Shown here: positions 8,451-59,989 of the stretch, one piece after another
How positions within the stretch are numbered: the stretch's first letter is position 1
How the letters are laid out: each line of letters starts with the position of its first letter
The notes under the pieces: generated by a model
The model's database searches: none
The model's input: the letters and a program-made list of their open reading frames with translations, nothing else
What the model was told of the DNA's origin: nothing
Position numbers and translations under genes: made by a program
Source of the DNA: Rhizobium sp. SG_E_25_P2
Lineage (GTDB): Bacteria > Pseudomonadota > Alphaproteobacteria > Rhizobiales > Rhizobiaceae
Reading direction: 5' to 3'
NCBI RefSeq assembly: GCF_029892285.1
Contig: NZ_JARXVM010000002.1
Coordinates: 248,001 to 312,000 of the forward strand
Length of the DNA stretch: 64,000 nucleotides

Positions 8451-11138
8451 ATGGTTGAAATTGCACCGCTCGGCGCTCTTGTGGTCGATATTGAAGCCCG
8501 CGTCGACAAGCTCGAAAAGGGCATTGCCAAGGCCAACGCTGCGCAGCGGCGCGGTGCCACCGAAATGGAAAACCGCGCCCGGCAATCGGCGCGGAAGATC
8601 GAAGACACTTATTCCCGGTCATTCGACCGGATCGGCAAGACCATCGAAAACGGCTTCGCCGCCTTCAGCCGTGGCAGCGCGGCGGTTGCTGGCGCTGGCG
8701 CGGCTGCGCTCGCCTTCAAGGAGATCGCGAATTCGGTTGCGGAAGTGGACCGCGAAGCCCGCAAGGCTGGCGTGTCTGCGAAGGTTTGGCAGCAATGGGC
8801 GTTTGTCGCCAAAGCGACCGGCGCAAGCGTTGACGGCGTCACCGACGCCCTGAAGGAAATGAACATCCGGGCCAACGAATTCGCGCTCACCGGCAAAGGC
8901 GGCGGCGCCGAATGGTTCACGCGCTTCGGCTATTCTGCCGAAGAAGTGGGCCGCAAGCTTCGCGAGCCGAACGCCTTCCTCGATGAACTGATCGGCAAGA
9001 TCAAACAGCTTGATCAGGCGGGCCAGACGCGCGCCGTTGATGAACTGTTCGGCGGGACCGGCGCGGAAGAGCTATCGAAAGCCCTTGGCTTGTCCGTCGA
9101 GCAAATCCAGAAGCTACGCAGCGAAGCCGCGACCTTCAGCGCCGAACAGATCGAATCCGCAAAGCGTGTAAACGCCGCATGGGATACCATGTGGGCGAAC
9201 TTCACGGTTCGCGCCAAGGCCGCAGCCATTGAAGGCGCGAATATCGCCGCCTCAATTGCGCAGTCTATCAGGGACGCAGGCGAAAGCGTTGGCGCCGATA
9301 AGTGGCTTGATGGCACTCGGCTTGCACCGGGCGCCCTTGAAGCCGGGCGCCGCGACTATGATCAGCGGCAGGAACTCGCGGAGCTGAACGACCTTCTGAA
9401 GCAGCGCGCCGAACTCATGGCAGAGCTTGAAGGCATGTCGCCGCTTGCCCGCTCACTCGGCTTTGACGAGAGCGTCAAGGCAAACCTTCGGGAAGTGGAC
9501 GCCCGCATTCGCGAGGTGCAACAGGCATTGCAGGATACCCGCCCGGTCATCGATGGCGTCAAGGATTCCAGCGAAGCGCTTTCGCCCGCCTTCGACCGCA
9601 ACGCCACGGCGGCAATAAACTTCAAAACCGCCCTGGCTGAACTGAAGGCGCTTGTTCCGGGCCTGAAGGCCGACTTTGACGCGCTCGCACAGTCCGACGC
9701 CCTGAACACCGCATATCAGAACGCCGCGCGCAACGCCCGCTCTATGGGCGAACTGTGGCAGGCGACGGACATTGCCAGCCGCGCCCGATCGATCGCGACC
9801 TATGGTCAGCACGACAATATCCTCGACTTGATTGGCGCCGCCGAAGGGACCGACAGAGGGCGCGGCTATAACGAAACGCTCGGCTATGGCGCCTTTACCG
9901 GTGGCGCGCAAAACCTTACAGGCATGACGCTTGATGAGATCATGGCGCTTCAGGGCCGCATGCTCGCCAACCCGGCCAACACCTTCAATTCATCCGCCGT
10001 GGGCCGCTACCAGATCACGCGCCAGACGCTTCAGGACGCCATGCGGCAGATGAACCTTGCCGGTGATCGGACCTTTGACGCAGCCACACAGGATGAAATC
10101 GCCCGCTGGCTTCTGCGCAGCACGGGCGGCAACGTTGACGCCTTGCGTGGCCGCTGGGAGGGATTGCAGCGCGTGGATGTTTCCACCATCCGCAACGCCT
10201 ATGCAGGCACCCCCACCGCTGCGCAGAACCTTGACCCATCGCCGGGGCAGCAGCGCCAGACTGATCTTCTAAGGCAGCAGACCGACGCCCGCCGCAACCT
10301 GAACCAGACCGTTCAGGAAGGGCTTGATCAGGCCCGCTTTGAGCAGTCCATTTCCGGCATGTCGGAACGGCAGCGCCGTATCGAGCTAGAAGTTTATCGA
10401 GCGCAGCAGCAGGCCAAGCGCGAAGGCATCACGCTATCCGATCAGGAGCTTCAGAAGATCCGCGAAAAGATCGCGATGACGCAGCAGCTAGAGGCCAAGA
10501 ATCAGCAGGTGGCGGCATCGACAGAAGGATTGAAGCAGGGGCAACAGTTCTTCGCGGAATCTTTCACACAGTCACTCTCCGGGCTTCTGACCGGCACGAC
10601 CACATTGCAGGGCGCCGTTCAAAGCCTTCTGAATTCCCTGATCGACGCGACCCTGCAGGCTGCACTTCTCGGTAAGGGACCGCTTTCCGGTATCCTCGGC
10701 GGCGGCACCGGCTTGCTCGGTATGATCTTCGGCTTCAGCAGCGGCGGCTATACCGGTGATGGCGGCAAGTTCGAACCAGCTGGCATCGTGCACCGTGGCG
10801 AATATGTCATGTCAAAGGACGCGACCAAGAGGCTGGGCGCCGCGAACCTCGAAGCGCTTCATCGTGCTGCGCTCGGGAAGCCCGGCTATGCCAAGGGCGG
10901 GCTTGTCGGATCACCGGCCAAGCTGGCGCCCGTGTCATCGGAACATCGCGGCGGCGGCGTGACTGCGCAGGCCATCACCATCAACAGCCCTGTCACCGTC
11001 AACGCGACGGGCGGCGATGCGCAGCAAAATGCCGATCTTGCCCGGCAAGTTGCGAAGGAACATGAAAACATGATGCGCGCCGTGGTGCGGCAGGAAGTGT
11101 TCAACATGCAGAAGCCCGGAAACTTGCTGAACCGGTAG
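8451..11138 (+). CDS. Tail tape measure protein with embedded lysozyme-like domain
   Basis: 895 residues, mostly helical. Early residues carry coiled coil (DKLEKGIAKANAAQRRGATE) and a membrane-like AAVAGAGAAALAFKEIA stretch. The FKEIANSVAEVDREARKAGV and VWQQWAFVAKATG region is typical of tape measures of alphaproteobacterial phages. Residues about 450-555 look like a lysozyme/transglycosylase insert (LIGAAEGTDRG with a candidate catalytic Glu, then SSAVGRYQITRQTLQDA), suited to local peptidoglycan cutting on DNA entry. The C-terminus has Gly-rich repeats and GIVHRGEYVMSKDAT. By the usual 1.5 angstrom per residue rule the tail would be roughly 130 nm. No tail tube or tip gene follows it. Confidence 0.9.
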   Translation: MVEIAPLGALVVDIEARVDKLEKGIAKANAAQRRGATEMENRARQSARKIEDTYSRSFDRIGKTIENGFAAFSRGSAAVAGAGAAALAFKEIANSVAEVDREARKAGVSAKVWQQWAFVAKATGASVDGVTDALKEMNIRANEFALTGKGGGAEWFTRFGYSAEEVGRKLREPNAFLDELIGKIKQLDQAGQTRAVDELFGGTGAEELSKALGLSVEQIQKLRSEAATFSAEQIESAKRVNAAWDTMWANFTVRAKAAAIEGANIAASIAQSIRDAGESVGADKWLDGTRLAPGALEAGRRDYDQRQELAELNDLLKQRAELMAELEGMSPLARSLGFDESVKANLREVDARIREVQQALQDTRPVIDGVKDSSEALSPAFDRNATAAINFKTALAELKALVPGLKADFDALAQSDALNTAYQNAARNARSMGELWQATDIASRARSIATYGQHDNILDLIGAAEGTDRGRGYNETLGYGAFTGGAQNLTGMTLDEIMALQGRMLANPANTFNSSAVGRYQITRQTLQDAMRQMNLAGDRTFDAATQDEIARWLLRSTGGNVDALRGRWEGLQRVDVSTIRNAYAGTPTAAQNLDPSPGQQRQTDLLRQQTDARRNLNQTVQEGLDQARFEQSISGMSERQRRIELEVYRAQQQAKREGITLSDQELQKIREKIAMTQQLEAKNQQVAASTEGLKQGQQFFAESFTQSLSGLLTGTTTLQGAVQSLLNSLIDATLQAALLGKGPLSGILGGGTGLLGMIFGFSSGGYTGDGGKFEPAGIVHRGEYVMSKDATKRLGAANLEALHRAALGKPGYAKGGLVGSPAKLAPVSSEHRGGGVTAQAITINSPVTVNATGGDAQQNADLARQVAKEHENMMRAVVRQEVFNMQKPGNLLNR

Positions 11139-11255: not shown

Positions 11256-11271
11256 TGCTATATAGAAACCG
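11256..11271 (+). promoter_or_regulatory. Candidate promoter A (TGCTATATA, extended -10)
   Basis: CTGCTATATAG at 11255-11265 matches the Rhizobiales -10 (CTATAT) with a TG extension. Two further copies of TGCTATATA occur in this element (12243, 12834), each ahead of a structured transcript. No good -35 is visible. Transcription would begin near 11271 and run into the structured RNA region. Confidence 0.45.
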
Positions 11272-11720
11272 CTCATGGCGTCATCCATGCGCGCACCATA
11301 CTGGCACCGTTTACAAGGGCGACACCGGGACTCTAGACCGGCGCCATCAGCTGGCCAGAAGCAACCGGAAGATCAGCCGACAAGCTCCCCTGAATAAGGA
11401 CGCCCCGGCGGGTTATCGCCGCCTGCCTCGGCAGGGAATGGATGCAAGAAAATGACAAGCGCACTGTGGCACTCTTCGGAGGGACACAACGCTTGGCTAC
11501 GGATCGATTGAAGGCAAGTCGGTTCGTAGTGCGCACTCTTCGGAGTGTAACCGCTTCGGTCGCAAGACCGGGATAGCGGGGCGAATATCAGGTAAGGGAA
11601 GCCGCCTGATGCAGATTGACTATCTTTAGCCCTTCACCACCTGTTGCACGGTAACAGATATCCCCCTCTGGTAAGAACACAAATGGCAGCTTCTATCTGT
11701 CTGTTCTTACCAGAGGGGGA
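11270..11720 (+). ncRNA. Candidate large structured noncoding RNA
   Basis: No protein gene fits, but short perfect stems follow one another in order. AAGCG(11457)/CGCTT(11494) encloses a CTC-TTCG-GAG hairpin. A G-U-rich stem joins TACG (11498-11501) to CGTA (11525-11528). GCACTC-TTCG-GAGTGT spans 11533-11548. CCGCT (11551) to AGCGG (11579) encloses CGGTC-GCAA-GACCG, a GNRA tetraloop. ATCAGG (11587) pairs with CCTGAT (11610), and CTGTT (11641) with AACAG (11657). A 19-bp hairpin ends the series at 11720. UUCG and GNRA loops and G-U pairs point to function as RNA. The 5' part (11310-11450) also has short helices, such as GGCG/CGCC around 11407-11419. I do not recognise a known family; large phage RNAs such as GOLLD or ROOL are only analogies. 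Confidence 0.5.
11661..11720. repeat. 19-bp perfect inverted repeat
   Basis: TCCCCCTCTGGTAAGAACA (11661-11679) is perfectly complementary to 11702-11720, with a 22-nt loop. The arms are not followed by a T-run. It could be the 3' boundary or an RNase-processed stem of the structured RNA, a replication-origin hairpin, or a protein-binding site. Confidence 0.85.
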
Positions 11721-11786
11721 AAGTCCTATTCCCGGTGGCATATGATCAGAGCAACAAACCACCGGCACCACGAAACAGGTCAAGAG

Positions 11787-11849
11787 AACGCCGCGAAGCG
11801 GCGGCAAGGCCGAAGGCCGCGCAGGCGAGCGCAGCGAGCAACAGGCGTT
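11787..11849. repeat. Hairpin array closed by AACGCC/GGCGTT
   Basis: AACGCC (11787-11792) pairs with GGCGTT (11844-11849) and encloses small GAA-loop hairpins (CCGC-GAA-GCGG at 11791-11801 and GGCC-GAA-GGCC at 11808-11818) and a repeated GCGAGC. It looks like a multibranched fold in RNA or single-stranded DNA. A short frame reading through it (11742-11924) has low-complexity Arg-rich sequence and is unlikely to be a gene. Confidence 0.6.
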
Positions 11850-12240: not shown

Positions 12241-12257
12241 TTGCTATATATTCATCA
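12241..12257 (+). promoter_or_regulatory. Candidate promoter B (TTGCTATATA)
   Basis: TTGCTATATA at 12241-12250 in the context AGCCTGACCGAACTTGCTAT, closely similar to promoter C at 12832. Predicted start near 12257, directly ahead of a short hairpin-rich unit with a strong terminator. Confidence 0.55.
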
Positions 12258-12344
12258 GCAGCCGAAACGGCTTCCAACTCTTCCGGCTGCCAGACAAAGG
12301 ACGACCTGAACCCCGCGTGTGCCTTCCACGCGGGGTTTCTTTTT
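12257..12344 (+). ncRNA. Candidate small RNA of about 88 nt with intrinsic terminator
   Basis: Between promoter B and a strong terminator there is no sensible open frame. The 5' part can fold in two ways: AGCCG-AAA-CGGCT as a local hairpin, or GCAGCCG with the later CGGCTGC, so alternative conformations are possible. The 3' end is AACCCCGCGTG (12309-12319) paired with CACGCGGGGTT (12327-12337), followed by TTCTTTTT. Promoter, compact fold and terminator together support a genuine small transcript; targets and partners are unknown. Confidence 0.6.
12309..12344 (+). terminator. Rho-independent terminator of small RNA
   Basis: 11-bp GC-rich stem (12309-12319 with 12327-12337), 7-nt loop, and a T-rich tail to 12344. 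Confidence 0.85.
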
Positions 12345-12364
12345 GCCTGCCATGTCCTGAAACG

Positions 12365-13263: not shown

Positions 13264-13293
13264 AAAGCCCGCCGATCCTCACCGGCGGGCTTT
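13264..13293. terminator. Bidirectional terminator
   Basis: AAAGCCCGCCG (13264-13274) with CGGCGGGCTTT (13283-13293), 8-nt loop, A-rich on one side and T-rich on the other. It serves the convergent 12942 gene and the protease gene, whose stop lies inside the loop region. Confidence 0.85.
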
Positions 13294-14127
13294 ATTATGT
13301 TTCCATGGCGGCATTTTAGCGTCGCCCGCTTTAACTAGCTCATTGATGGTTAGATGAACATTGCCGTCTTCTAATTCATCGAGGTCATCGAAGCCCAATT
13401 CTCTGTCGGAACCAATGCTAGTGACAAATGACAAATCAGTTTGGCCGTCAAAGCTTGTGCAATTTATTCCGACAACCCTGCCACTCGCATTGAACACCGG
13501 CCCGCCGCTCGCGCCACCGTGTATGTGGAAATCTACGCGGAAGTTTTGCCACGGCGTCATCGTGCCAATGCCACTTAGTGAGACTTCATGCACTATTCCT
13601 CGGTAGAAGCCCCCGTTTAGCCAAATTTCCCGTTTTTTTCCGTCTTCCACAATCGTGGATTCAGGAAATGCGTATGTGAAGACCGTGTCACCAACTTGGG
13701 GCAATTTTCCCGTAAGCGGTAGGCAAGGTTGACCGGCAACTTTTGCCGGCTCAACTTTAACCATACATATGTCGGCACGAGCTGACATCACACTGCGAAT
13801 AACTTGTCTTATCTCATGCGTGCCATCAGCCGATTGCTGAACGATGACGTGGCGGAAAACTTGAGCCGCTTCTTTCGCATCGGGGTCGCTTCCATCCCAA
13901 GCATAGCTCCGCTTAAGTGAAAACTTATGTTCAAAGACATGTCGCGCTGTGATCAAAATGTCTTTGGCAACGAAGAACCCTGTTCCGGTGGCTGCCCACT
14001 TGCCGTCGTCGGGGTCGATCTCAAACATTGCCACGATAGATTGACCGACGTCACCTTGCCTATTGAAATCATCAATGACTGAATACTTATCGGGCACGTC
14101 TGTCCCGTCGAGTTTCTTAAAGGCCAT
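13279..14127 (-). CDS. Trypsin-like serine protease (possible cargo/moron)
   Basis: 282 residues, no signal peptide, so probably cytoplasmic. The trypsin-like catalytic triad is visible: GTGFFVAKDILITARHVF with His63, SARADICMVKV with Asp119, and HGGASGGPVFNASG with Ser207. The protein ends with an acidic segment and lacks a PDZ domain. It is transcribed against the rest of the element and has its own flanking terminators, the usual arrangement of accessory cargo near an attachment site. Stand-alone and fused trypsin-like proteases occur in anti-phage systems, but no partner sensor gene is adjacent here, so a defence role is only a suggestion. Base composition seems AT-richer than the structural genes. 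Confidence 0.85.
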   Translation of the reverse strand: MAFKKLDGTDVPDKYSVIDDFNRQGDVGQSIVAMFEIDPDDGKWAATGTGFFVAKDILITARHVFEHKFSLKRSYAWDGSDPDAKEAAQVFRHVIVQQSADGTHEIRQVIRSVMSARADICMVKVEPAKVAGQPCLPLTGKLPQVGDTVFTYAFPESTIVEDGKKREIWLNGGFYRGIVHEVSLSGIGTMTPWQNFRVDFHIHGGASGGPVFNASGRVVGINCTSFDGQTDLSFVTSIGSDRELGFDDLDELEDGNVHLTINELVKAGDAKMPPWKHNKARR

Positions 14128-14963: not shown

Positions 14964-15037
14964 TGGCTGGGGAACCTGGATTCGAACCAGGACTAACGGA
15001 GTCAGAGTCCGTGGGTCTACCGTTAACCTATTCCCCA
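14964..15037 (-). tRNA. tRNA-Gln (anticodon CTG)
   Basis: 74 nt, CCA encoded. The acceptor stem TGGGGAA/TTCCCCA, a G discriminator, the T-loop GGTTCGAATCC and the anticodon loop CTCTGAC (anticodon CTG) are all intact. It reads CAG codons. Its 3' end points at the phage-like element, so it is the likely attachment site. Confidence 0.97.
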
Positions 15038-59884: not shown

Positions 59885-59909
59885 TCACGGCCGCCTTCTG
59901 CGCCGCGAC

Positions 59910-59989
59910 AAAAAAAACCGCGCCATAAGCGCGGTCAAGTCTAGGGAGGAAACACCCAAGGAGGGCATTTACAGCCGGTAAGGACTGTA
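59910..59989 (-). ncRNA. mmgR: mmgR-like small RNA (alpha-r8 family)
   Basis: About 80 nt. The 5' hairpin ACAGTC...GGCTGT is followed by a CCC...GGG hairpin, then the unpaired TTTCCTCCCT decamer typical of the family, and then the terminator ACCGCGC-TTATG-GCGCGGT with a run of eight T. The strong promoter TTGACT-N17-TTATCT is upstream. In Sinorhizobium the RNA limits polyhydroxybutyrate storage; the anti-ribosome-site decamer is thought to pair with mRNAs. Length and order fit the family closely. Confidence 0.8.

Follow-up and report, generated by a model that had tools for sequence, protein, structure and literature searches.

A new family of large structured RNAs in satellite-like alphaproteobacterial elements, and a candidate role in their replication

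Some 450 nucleotides lacking an evident gene follow a phage tail gene in Rhizobium sp. SG_E_25_P2, and the question they raise is what such a stretch encodes and what it does for the DNA that carries it. The locus lies in a stretch of 64,000 nucleotides analyzed here (contig NZ_JARXVM010000002.1, positions 248,001 to 312,000; hereafter the window, whose coordinates are used throughout). An original prediction made from the sequence alone proposed a possible large ornate noncoding RNA at 11270-11720, downstream of the tape measure gene. The position is correct, as the open reading frame at 8451-11138 (+ strand) matches the PHROG tail length tape measure family (E 1.1e-78) and the region lies directly 3' of it. 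The biggest frames within 11270-11720 comprise 67 aa (- strand) and 44 aa (+ strand), neither of which is kept in homologues, in agreement with the claim that there is no sensible protein frame, and a search for a protein gene or an integrated remnant gave no match. As RNA, 11262-11720 folds at -192.8 kcal/mol, compared with -156.1 ± 6.4 kcal/mol in dinucleotide shuffles (z -5.7), with 0 of 100 shuffles folding as well, and a perfect hairpin of 19 bp occupies 11661-11720. The predicted structured region was borne out except for its end, since the conserved part reaches ~11745, about 25 nt further; with both ends inferred, the RNA runs from ~11270 to ~11745 on the + strand, about 475 nt.

No catalogued family contains this RNA. 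At the gathering score of Rfam release 15 the window gave no match to it, and at E up to 10 the region and three homologous loci returned only chance-level matches to unrelated families, microRNA precursors among them, which were set aside. The suggestion that the RNA may be new therefore stands, since neither its sequence nor a model match identifies it as GOLLD or ROOL; a published description of the family was not found in the open-access literature, which is no proof of novelty. Elsewhere in the window, 59903-59973 (- strand) encodes mmgR (suhB, RF00519), an ordinary chromosomal small RNA of rhizobia.

Homologues were sought at several depths. Among 101 related genomes, a blastn-type search recovered three more diverged copies, in G058, in G004 and in a second element of the same genome, all directly 3' of a tape-measure gene (copies in 3 of the 101 relatives). 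The degenerate pattern GACCGGCGCYATSAG...GCCAGA, taken from a conserved stretch and run on IMG/VR and on one-per-species genomes, matched Martelella radicis, M. mediterranea, Devosia naphthalenivorans, Brucella endophytica, Rhizobium sp. FKL33 and IMG/VR contigs. A covariance model of the 3' core (R1; 14 sequences, 164 positions) then recovered copies that had not contributed to it, with scores of 48-137 bits overall: G623 (82.5 bits), G358 (71.4), G356 (56.4) and G493 (48.5) among 397 genomes of the order, G944 (63.5) among 398 genomes of the phylum, and, among IMG/VR contigs chosen only for a related tape-measure protein, L082, L104, L108, L125, L084, L070, L106, L103 and L081 (136.8 to 52.9 bits). 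Every R1 match among the tape-measure loci lies 3' of the tape-measure gene on the same strand; L021, L024, L025, L038 and L041 were dismissed on inspection as coding or weak chance matches. The RNA is rare and essentially confined to Hyphomicrobiales, from which almost all of the 28 distinct core sequences come: copies occur in 5 of the 397 order genomes (its own and four others, one weak match being left out) and in one other genome of the 398 across the phylum, of the same class and another order, while a more general model (R2) found no copy beyond its own genome among 385 class genomes. Collections of phage and plasmid DNA, including known plasmids searched by blastn, did not yield a homologous RNA; one plasmid match that covered only 10% of the query was dismissed.

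The homologues covary strongly in two alignments. In a model-fitted alignment of the 3' core (A5, 28 distinct rows), 90.0% of cells pair and 32 of the 39 pairs show changes on both sides; double-change cells number 188 compared with 45.4 ± 5.6 in shuffles, the covariation score is 0.523 compared with 0.187 in shuffles, and sliding the partners by 1-3 columns lowers pairing to 31-43%. As A5 leans towards its own model, the test was repeated after aligning 18 full-length RNAs with plain MAFFT (A7); in this alignment 44 of 69 pairs covary, 134 double-change cells are seen where 37.2 ± 5.0 are expected, and 92.4% of cells are paired compared with 30-43% when slid. Supplied with no structure, RNAalifold predicted 73 pairs on A7, 45 of them with compensatory changes. 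Several covarying helices in diverged homologues, by which large structured bacterial or phage noncoding RNAs are recognized, are thus present, and together with a fold that beats its shuffles they confirm the window RNA as a genuine large structured noncoding RNA of a new family. Its parts are as follows.

11256-11264, + strand: extended -10 promoter element TGCTATATA, recognized by sequence; a TGCTATAAT-like extended -10 precedes most homologues, and the predicted start is ~11270
11274-11289, + strand: P1 hairpin CATGG/CCATG (A7 helix 1; double changes at 4/4 pairs, 67% of cells paired)
11301-11358, + strand: P2 CTGGC/GCCAG around P3 GGCG-CCGG/CCGG-CGCC, with conserved GGGACTCTAGACCGGCGCCAT (A7 helices 2-4)
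11375-11418, + strand: P4 domain, GCCG/CGGC around CTCCCC-hairpin-GGACG (A7 helices 5-6; double changes at 8/10 pairs)
11457-11495, + strand: P7, CAAGCG/CGCTTG and TGTG/CACA closing a UUCG hairpin (A7 helices 8-9)
11496-11530, + strand: P8, 14-bp stem with G-U pairs and loop GAAGGCA (fold; double changes in A5 helix 1, at 9/9 pairs, and in A7 helix 11)
11533-11548, + strand: P9, optional hairpin with UUCG loop, lacking in some homologues (A5 helix 3)
11551-11579, + strand: P10, CCG/CGG stem around a GCAA tetraloop hairpin (A5 helix 5; inner helix covarying at 5/5 pairs, 100% of cells paired)
11580-11634, + strand: P11-P13 junction, GGC/GCC, ATCAGG/CCTGAT with conserved GGGAAGCC, and AGAT/ATCT (A5 helices 6-8)
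11641-11657, + strand: P14 hairpin CTGTT/AACAG, its loop holding the first direct-repeat copy CGGT (11649-11652)
11661-11720, + strand: P15, long 3' hairpin with 19-bp arms and foot CCCCC/GGGGG (fold and homologues)
11721-11745, + strand: conserved tail AAGTCCTATTCCCGGTGG with the second direct-repeat copy CGGT (11733-11736); the repeat pair co-varies between subfamilies
11789-11840, + strand: string of short GC hairpins, ..GGCAAGGCCGAAGGCCGCGCAGG.., found 3' of the RNA in most homologues

All the successive helices that had been named from the sequence were recovered, among them the two UUCG hairpins (in the 11470s and at 11533-11548) and the GNRA hairpin within a second stem (the GCAA hairpin at 11557-11570, inside P10); the stem with several G-U pairs, given as 11498-11528, exists with those pairs and has its true bounds at 11496-11530. 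The family layout starts with a 5' leader that is optional, followed by the 5' domain (P1-P5), a long-range stem at the center (P7), the 3' core (P8-P14) and the terminal P15, and most homologues are about 430-520 nt long, more where the extra leader is present. Whole domains can be missing in members, as with the P4 domain and its neighbors, which are absent from L003, L005 and L009. The P15 foot, CCCC(C)/GGGG(G), recurs in nearly all homologues while the remaining stem is variable.

The promoter-like sequence noticed in front of the region has its counterpart across the family, an extended -10 of the type T(G/C)GCTATAAT preceding most copies, and the RNA is predicted from this to be transcribed from its own promoter. 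An intergenic RNA on the coding strand could serve the next gene in cis, as a leader or riboswitch; such a role is strongly disfavored and scarcely credible, because the neighboring genes differ between loci and the next one often lies on the opposite strand. Hardly better is the case for a ribozyme, intron or mobile-element RNA (a group I or II intron, a retron or a transposon guide RNA), which we consider very improbable: the RNA is large, structured and mobile, with serine or tyrosine recombinase genes alongside in some loci, but searches at E up to 10 matched no Rfam intron, retron, guide RNA or other ribozyme, neither a reverse transcriptase nor a TnpB-type gene was noted alongside, and the RNA lies between genes, not within one.

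The DNA that carries the RNA is a complete element of 16.6 kb (-1655 to 14980 in window coordinates) integrated at tRNA-Gln and bounded by 17-bp repeats, of which attL lies 1655 bases before the window and the other is within it:

14964-14980, no strand assigned: attR TGGCTGGGGAACCTGGA, at the 3' end of tRNA-Gln (14964-15037, - strand)

Its genes run in the order integrase, portal, tail tube, protease-capsid fusion, tail assembly chaperone, HNH, tail terminator, head completion, small and large terminase, tape measure, RNA and accessory genes, and no recognizable replication, lysis, tail-tip or fiber gene is found among those annotated. The second RNA copy of the genome resides in an 18.3-kb element at tRNA-Ser (G000:C14:1957-20260) with identical gene order, in which capsid, terminase, tail-tube and tape-measure genes are present and replication, lysis and fiber genes were not recognized. 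No replication initiator was recognized in either complete element; both encode many small proteins without assignment, and a helper may replicate both. About a hundred relatives occur in IMG/VR, mostly of 14-20 kb. These elements look like satellites or minimal phages, and they may depend on a helper. The RNA is set in a small satellite-like element, not in an ordinary prophage, in a slot that in close relatives seems to be filled by replication-type modules.

Comparable elements are known. Capsid-forming PICIs and the Mulch and Flayer satellites of Streptomyces (PMC10690885) are likewise small, bring their own encapsidation genes and lack key replication genes; the elements described here differ in adding tail-tube and tape-measure genes, in sitting at the 3' ends of alphaproteobacterial tRNA genes and in that part of them carry the RNA. 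Abundant large noncoding RNAs are also produced in the system of the PLE satellite and phage ICP1, in other hosts (PMC7567579). That satellites can express such RNAs (PMC7567579) is one reason to consider that this one is accessory cargo, a regulatory, decoy or anti-phage RNA acting on the helper phage or the host. The downstream parts of the elements do carry cargo (an AIPR-domain gene, a trypsin-like protease gene) and only part of the family has the RNA, but its slot and orientation after the tape-measure gene are fixed, and in elements without a tape-measure gene it adjoins integrase or recombinase genes; we regard a cargo role as unlikely. Cargo genes are seen near element ends at 13279-14127 (- strand) and L047:18772-19947 (- strand), these being a protease of the trypsin-like type and a protein with an AIPR domain. 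At 12241-12345 there is a second small RNA-like unit, with a TTGCTATATAT promoter, about 90 nt and the terminator CCCCGCGTG..CACGCGGGGTTTCTTTTT; similar promoter-hairpin-terminator units also lie near the large RNA in L034 and L037.

What occupies the slot when the RNA is absent is more informative about function. Loci with a related tape-measure gene numbered 66, comprising 20 with the RNA and 46 without, and the improved model R2 detected no hidden or diverged copy in 64 RNA-less sources. In 15 of the 46 RNA-less loci (L051, L055, L057, L068, L069, L077-L080, L086, L088, L091, L105, L121 and L124) the slot encodes an HUH-type protein of 230-430 aa. Across ten aligned slot proteins, HxH(G) and YxxK alone among the catalytic-type residues are strictly invariant, and this combination is the signature of HUH replication endonucleases. 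The only Pfam match is REP_ORF2-G2P, at a weak E of 0.0055, and an HUH profile had no match to the sequences of solved structures. A structural model of moderate quality (core pLDDT about 80-95) resembles the Rep nuclease domains of AAV, circovirus and wheat dwarf virus with probability mostly 0.8-0.97, these matches being non-significant (E above 0.02) and ranked after PII-like folds. Given the weak Pfam match and the rank and E of the fold matches, the slot protein is probably, though not provenly, an HUH Rep. The HUH family is diverse, and in some cases a ribbon-helix-helix gene stands before its gene, an arrangement reminiscent of CopG-RepB pairs.

A long inverted repeat enclosing an AT-rich loop, usually plus a ribbon-helix-helix gene, takes the slot in 13 further RNA-less loci. 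In L053, L054, L059, L074, L099 and L115 the repeat arms are 16-33 nt long around AT-rich loops, some with an extra copy of an arm nearby, and these repeats look like iteron-type origins. HUH genes are found in none of the 20 RNA loci (p 0.003), and an HUH or ribbon-helix-helix gene is present in 31 of 46 RNA-less loci compared with 2 of 20 RNA loci (p 2.8e-5), both p-values being optimistic because the loci are related and the categories were drawn after looking; about 15 RNA-less loci carry neither gene. More telling than these p-values is the exchange among close relatives, the slot holding an HUH gene in L051 (tape-measure identity to the window 81%), the RNA in L052 (76%) and an AT-rich inverted repeat in L053 (66%). 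The slot after the tape-measure gene is exchangeable, and the RNA and the other modules are mutually exclusive. In about three quarters of RNA loci the GC-hairpin string with GGCAAGGCCGAAGGCCGCGCAGG comes after the RNA, and in several RNA-less loci it adjoins the AT-rich module; that at 11789-11840 occurs without mismatch only once in its own genome. When protein genes were tested as possible linked partners of the RNA, exclusions were the main result, with only mild enrichment of one family, fam3 (10 of 20 RNA loci compared with 9 of 46 RNA-less).

Because sister elements without the RNA carry HUH Rep-like or AT-rich/ribbon-helix-helix modules in the same slot, we propose the RNA as a replication-control module; on this argument the slot would be a replication module and the RNA would perform that role. 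As a tentative reading, favored here while falling somewhat short of probable, the new family would act as the element's replication or copy-control module, likeliest as a preprimer of the ColE1 RNA II type. The bolder form of this, an RNA-only initiation or copy-control module that freely replaces an HUH Rep gene or an AT-rich ribbon-helix-helix origin and constitutes an independent, non-plasmid RNA II-like preprimer, is possible yet more doubtful. In either form the RNA would replace the protein replication modules that sister elements carry in the slot. The transcript, once folded, would stay hybridized to the template by its G-rich 3' part, the RNA:DNA hybrid would be cut by RNase H, and the cut RNA would prime synthesis near the GC-hairpin string; a promoter on the reverse strand would, in some subfamilies, supply a short antisense transcript that damps the RNA in the manner of RNA I.

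The likeness to ColE1 RNA II and RNA I consists of a structured, promoter-driven RNA of about 500 nt that is here proposed to stand in for an initiator protein, a G-rich 3' part and, in some subfamilies, a predicted short antisense transcript over the 5' end; the fold and sequence are other than those of ColE1, and the carriers of the RNA are integrative elements instead of plasmids. An extra leader of roughly 110 nt is present in about 11 homologues, and its opposite strand bears a predicted promoter, TTGAC(A/G/T)-N17-TA, with a TTGAC -35 and a spacing of exactly 17 nt; in 7 of them a terminator-like hairpin is also present on the antisense strand, so a short antisense RNA over the 5' end is predicted in this leader subgroup. 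It is suggestive only, as several of these promoters taken singly score no better than shuffles, and unlike RNA I the antisense promoter is missing from about half of the family, the window copy included.

A further family feature is a short direct repeat, one copy of which lies in the P14 loop and the other in the tail, 12-16 nt past the end of the long hairpin. Its motif switches jointly at both places by subfamily (GCAG, CGGU, GGAUGAG, GUAAGC, GAAAAG and UGAUGUAU), and the summed longest match of the repeat pairs is 101 compared with 75.2 ± 3.6 when tails are permuted, 0 of 20,000 permutations reaching as high. Such co-variation of a direct repeat suggests two strands that compete for, or are both recognized by, one partner; inspection by eye revealed no third strand that would pair with the repeats. 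Target-site duplication was rejected as their source, because conserved sequence stands between the repeat and the hairpin.

In favor of a replication role we count the fold and covariation, the held-out homologues, elements without a recognized replication gene, the slot exchange, the shared GC-hairpin string, the antisense promoters and terminators, and the conserved G5/C5 foot of the 3' hairpin. Against it, blastn gave no homologue on known plasmids, although a free replicon could be expected there; a helper phage might replicate the element; the exclusion could arise at an insertion hotspot with room for only one cargo at once; and the RNA-less loci without either gene, like the copies without an antisense promoter, count on the same side. 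The GC skew of the element gave no origin signal.

The main rival to a replication-control module sees the RNA as an ornate phage RNA that acts in trans in the way of GOLLD (RF02032) or ROOL (RF03087): it would build up on induction and assemble into a large RNA particle or scaffold, with no part in DNA replication. During lytic growth GOLLD accumulates, although it is dispensable (PMC7567579); nanocages are formed by both GOLLD and ROOL (PMC12286853), and the function of both is still unknown (PMC7567579, PMC12286853). This is a reading we take seriously without thinking it probable. Like those RNAs, the present one is large, ornate and intergenic in phage or prophage DNA, with an intricate multi-junction fold, strong covariation, a (predicted) promoter of its own and a place beside late genes, and it is sporadic among related prophages with no linked protein. 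In size it is broadly similar, though at about 475 nt it is shorter than one ROOL of 659 and many GOLLD of over 800, and no similarity to either was found by sequence or by covariance model. Location near tRNA islands is a common, though not strict, feature of GOLLD and ROOL; loci of the present RNA have only single integration-site or unrelated tRNAs nearby, with no tRNA array, and instead lie after the tape-measure gene of satellite-like elements, exchangeable with Rep-like modules. A GOLLD- or ROOL-like role leaves the exclusion of HUH and AT-rich modules unexplained.

The large and strongly supported family described here adds to the few ornate phage RNAs known, GOLLD and ROOL, for which no function has been agreed. 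In contrast to these, it comes with evolution's own experiment, in which one and the same slot is filled, from one close relative to the next, by the RNA, by an HUH gene or by an origin-like AT-rich region, and this exchange offers a concrete, testable function for a large phage RNA. It also points to a wide and little-described family of alphaproteobacterial elements of 14-20 kb that encode capsid and tail.
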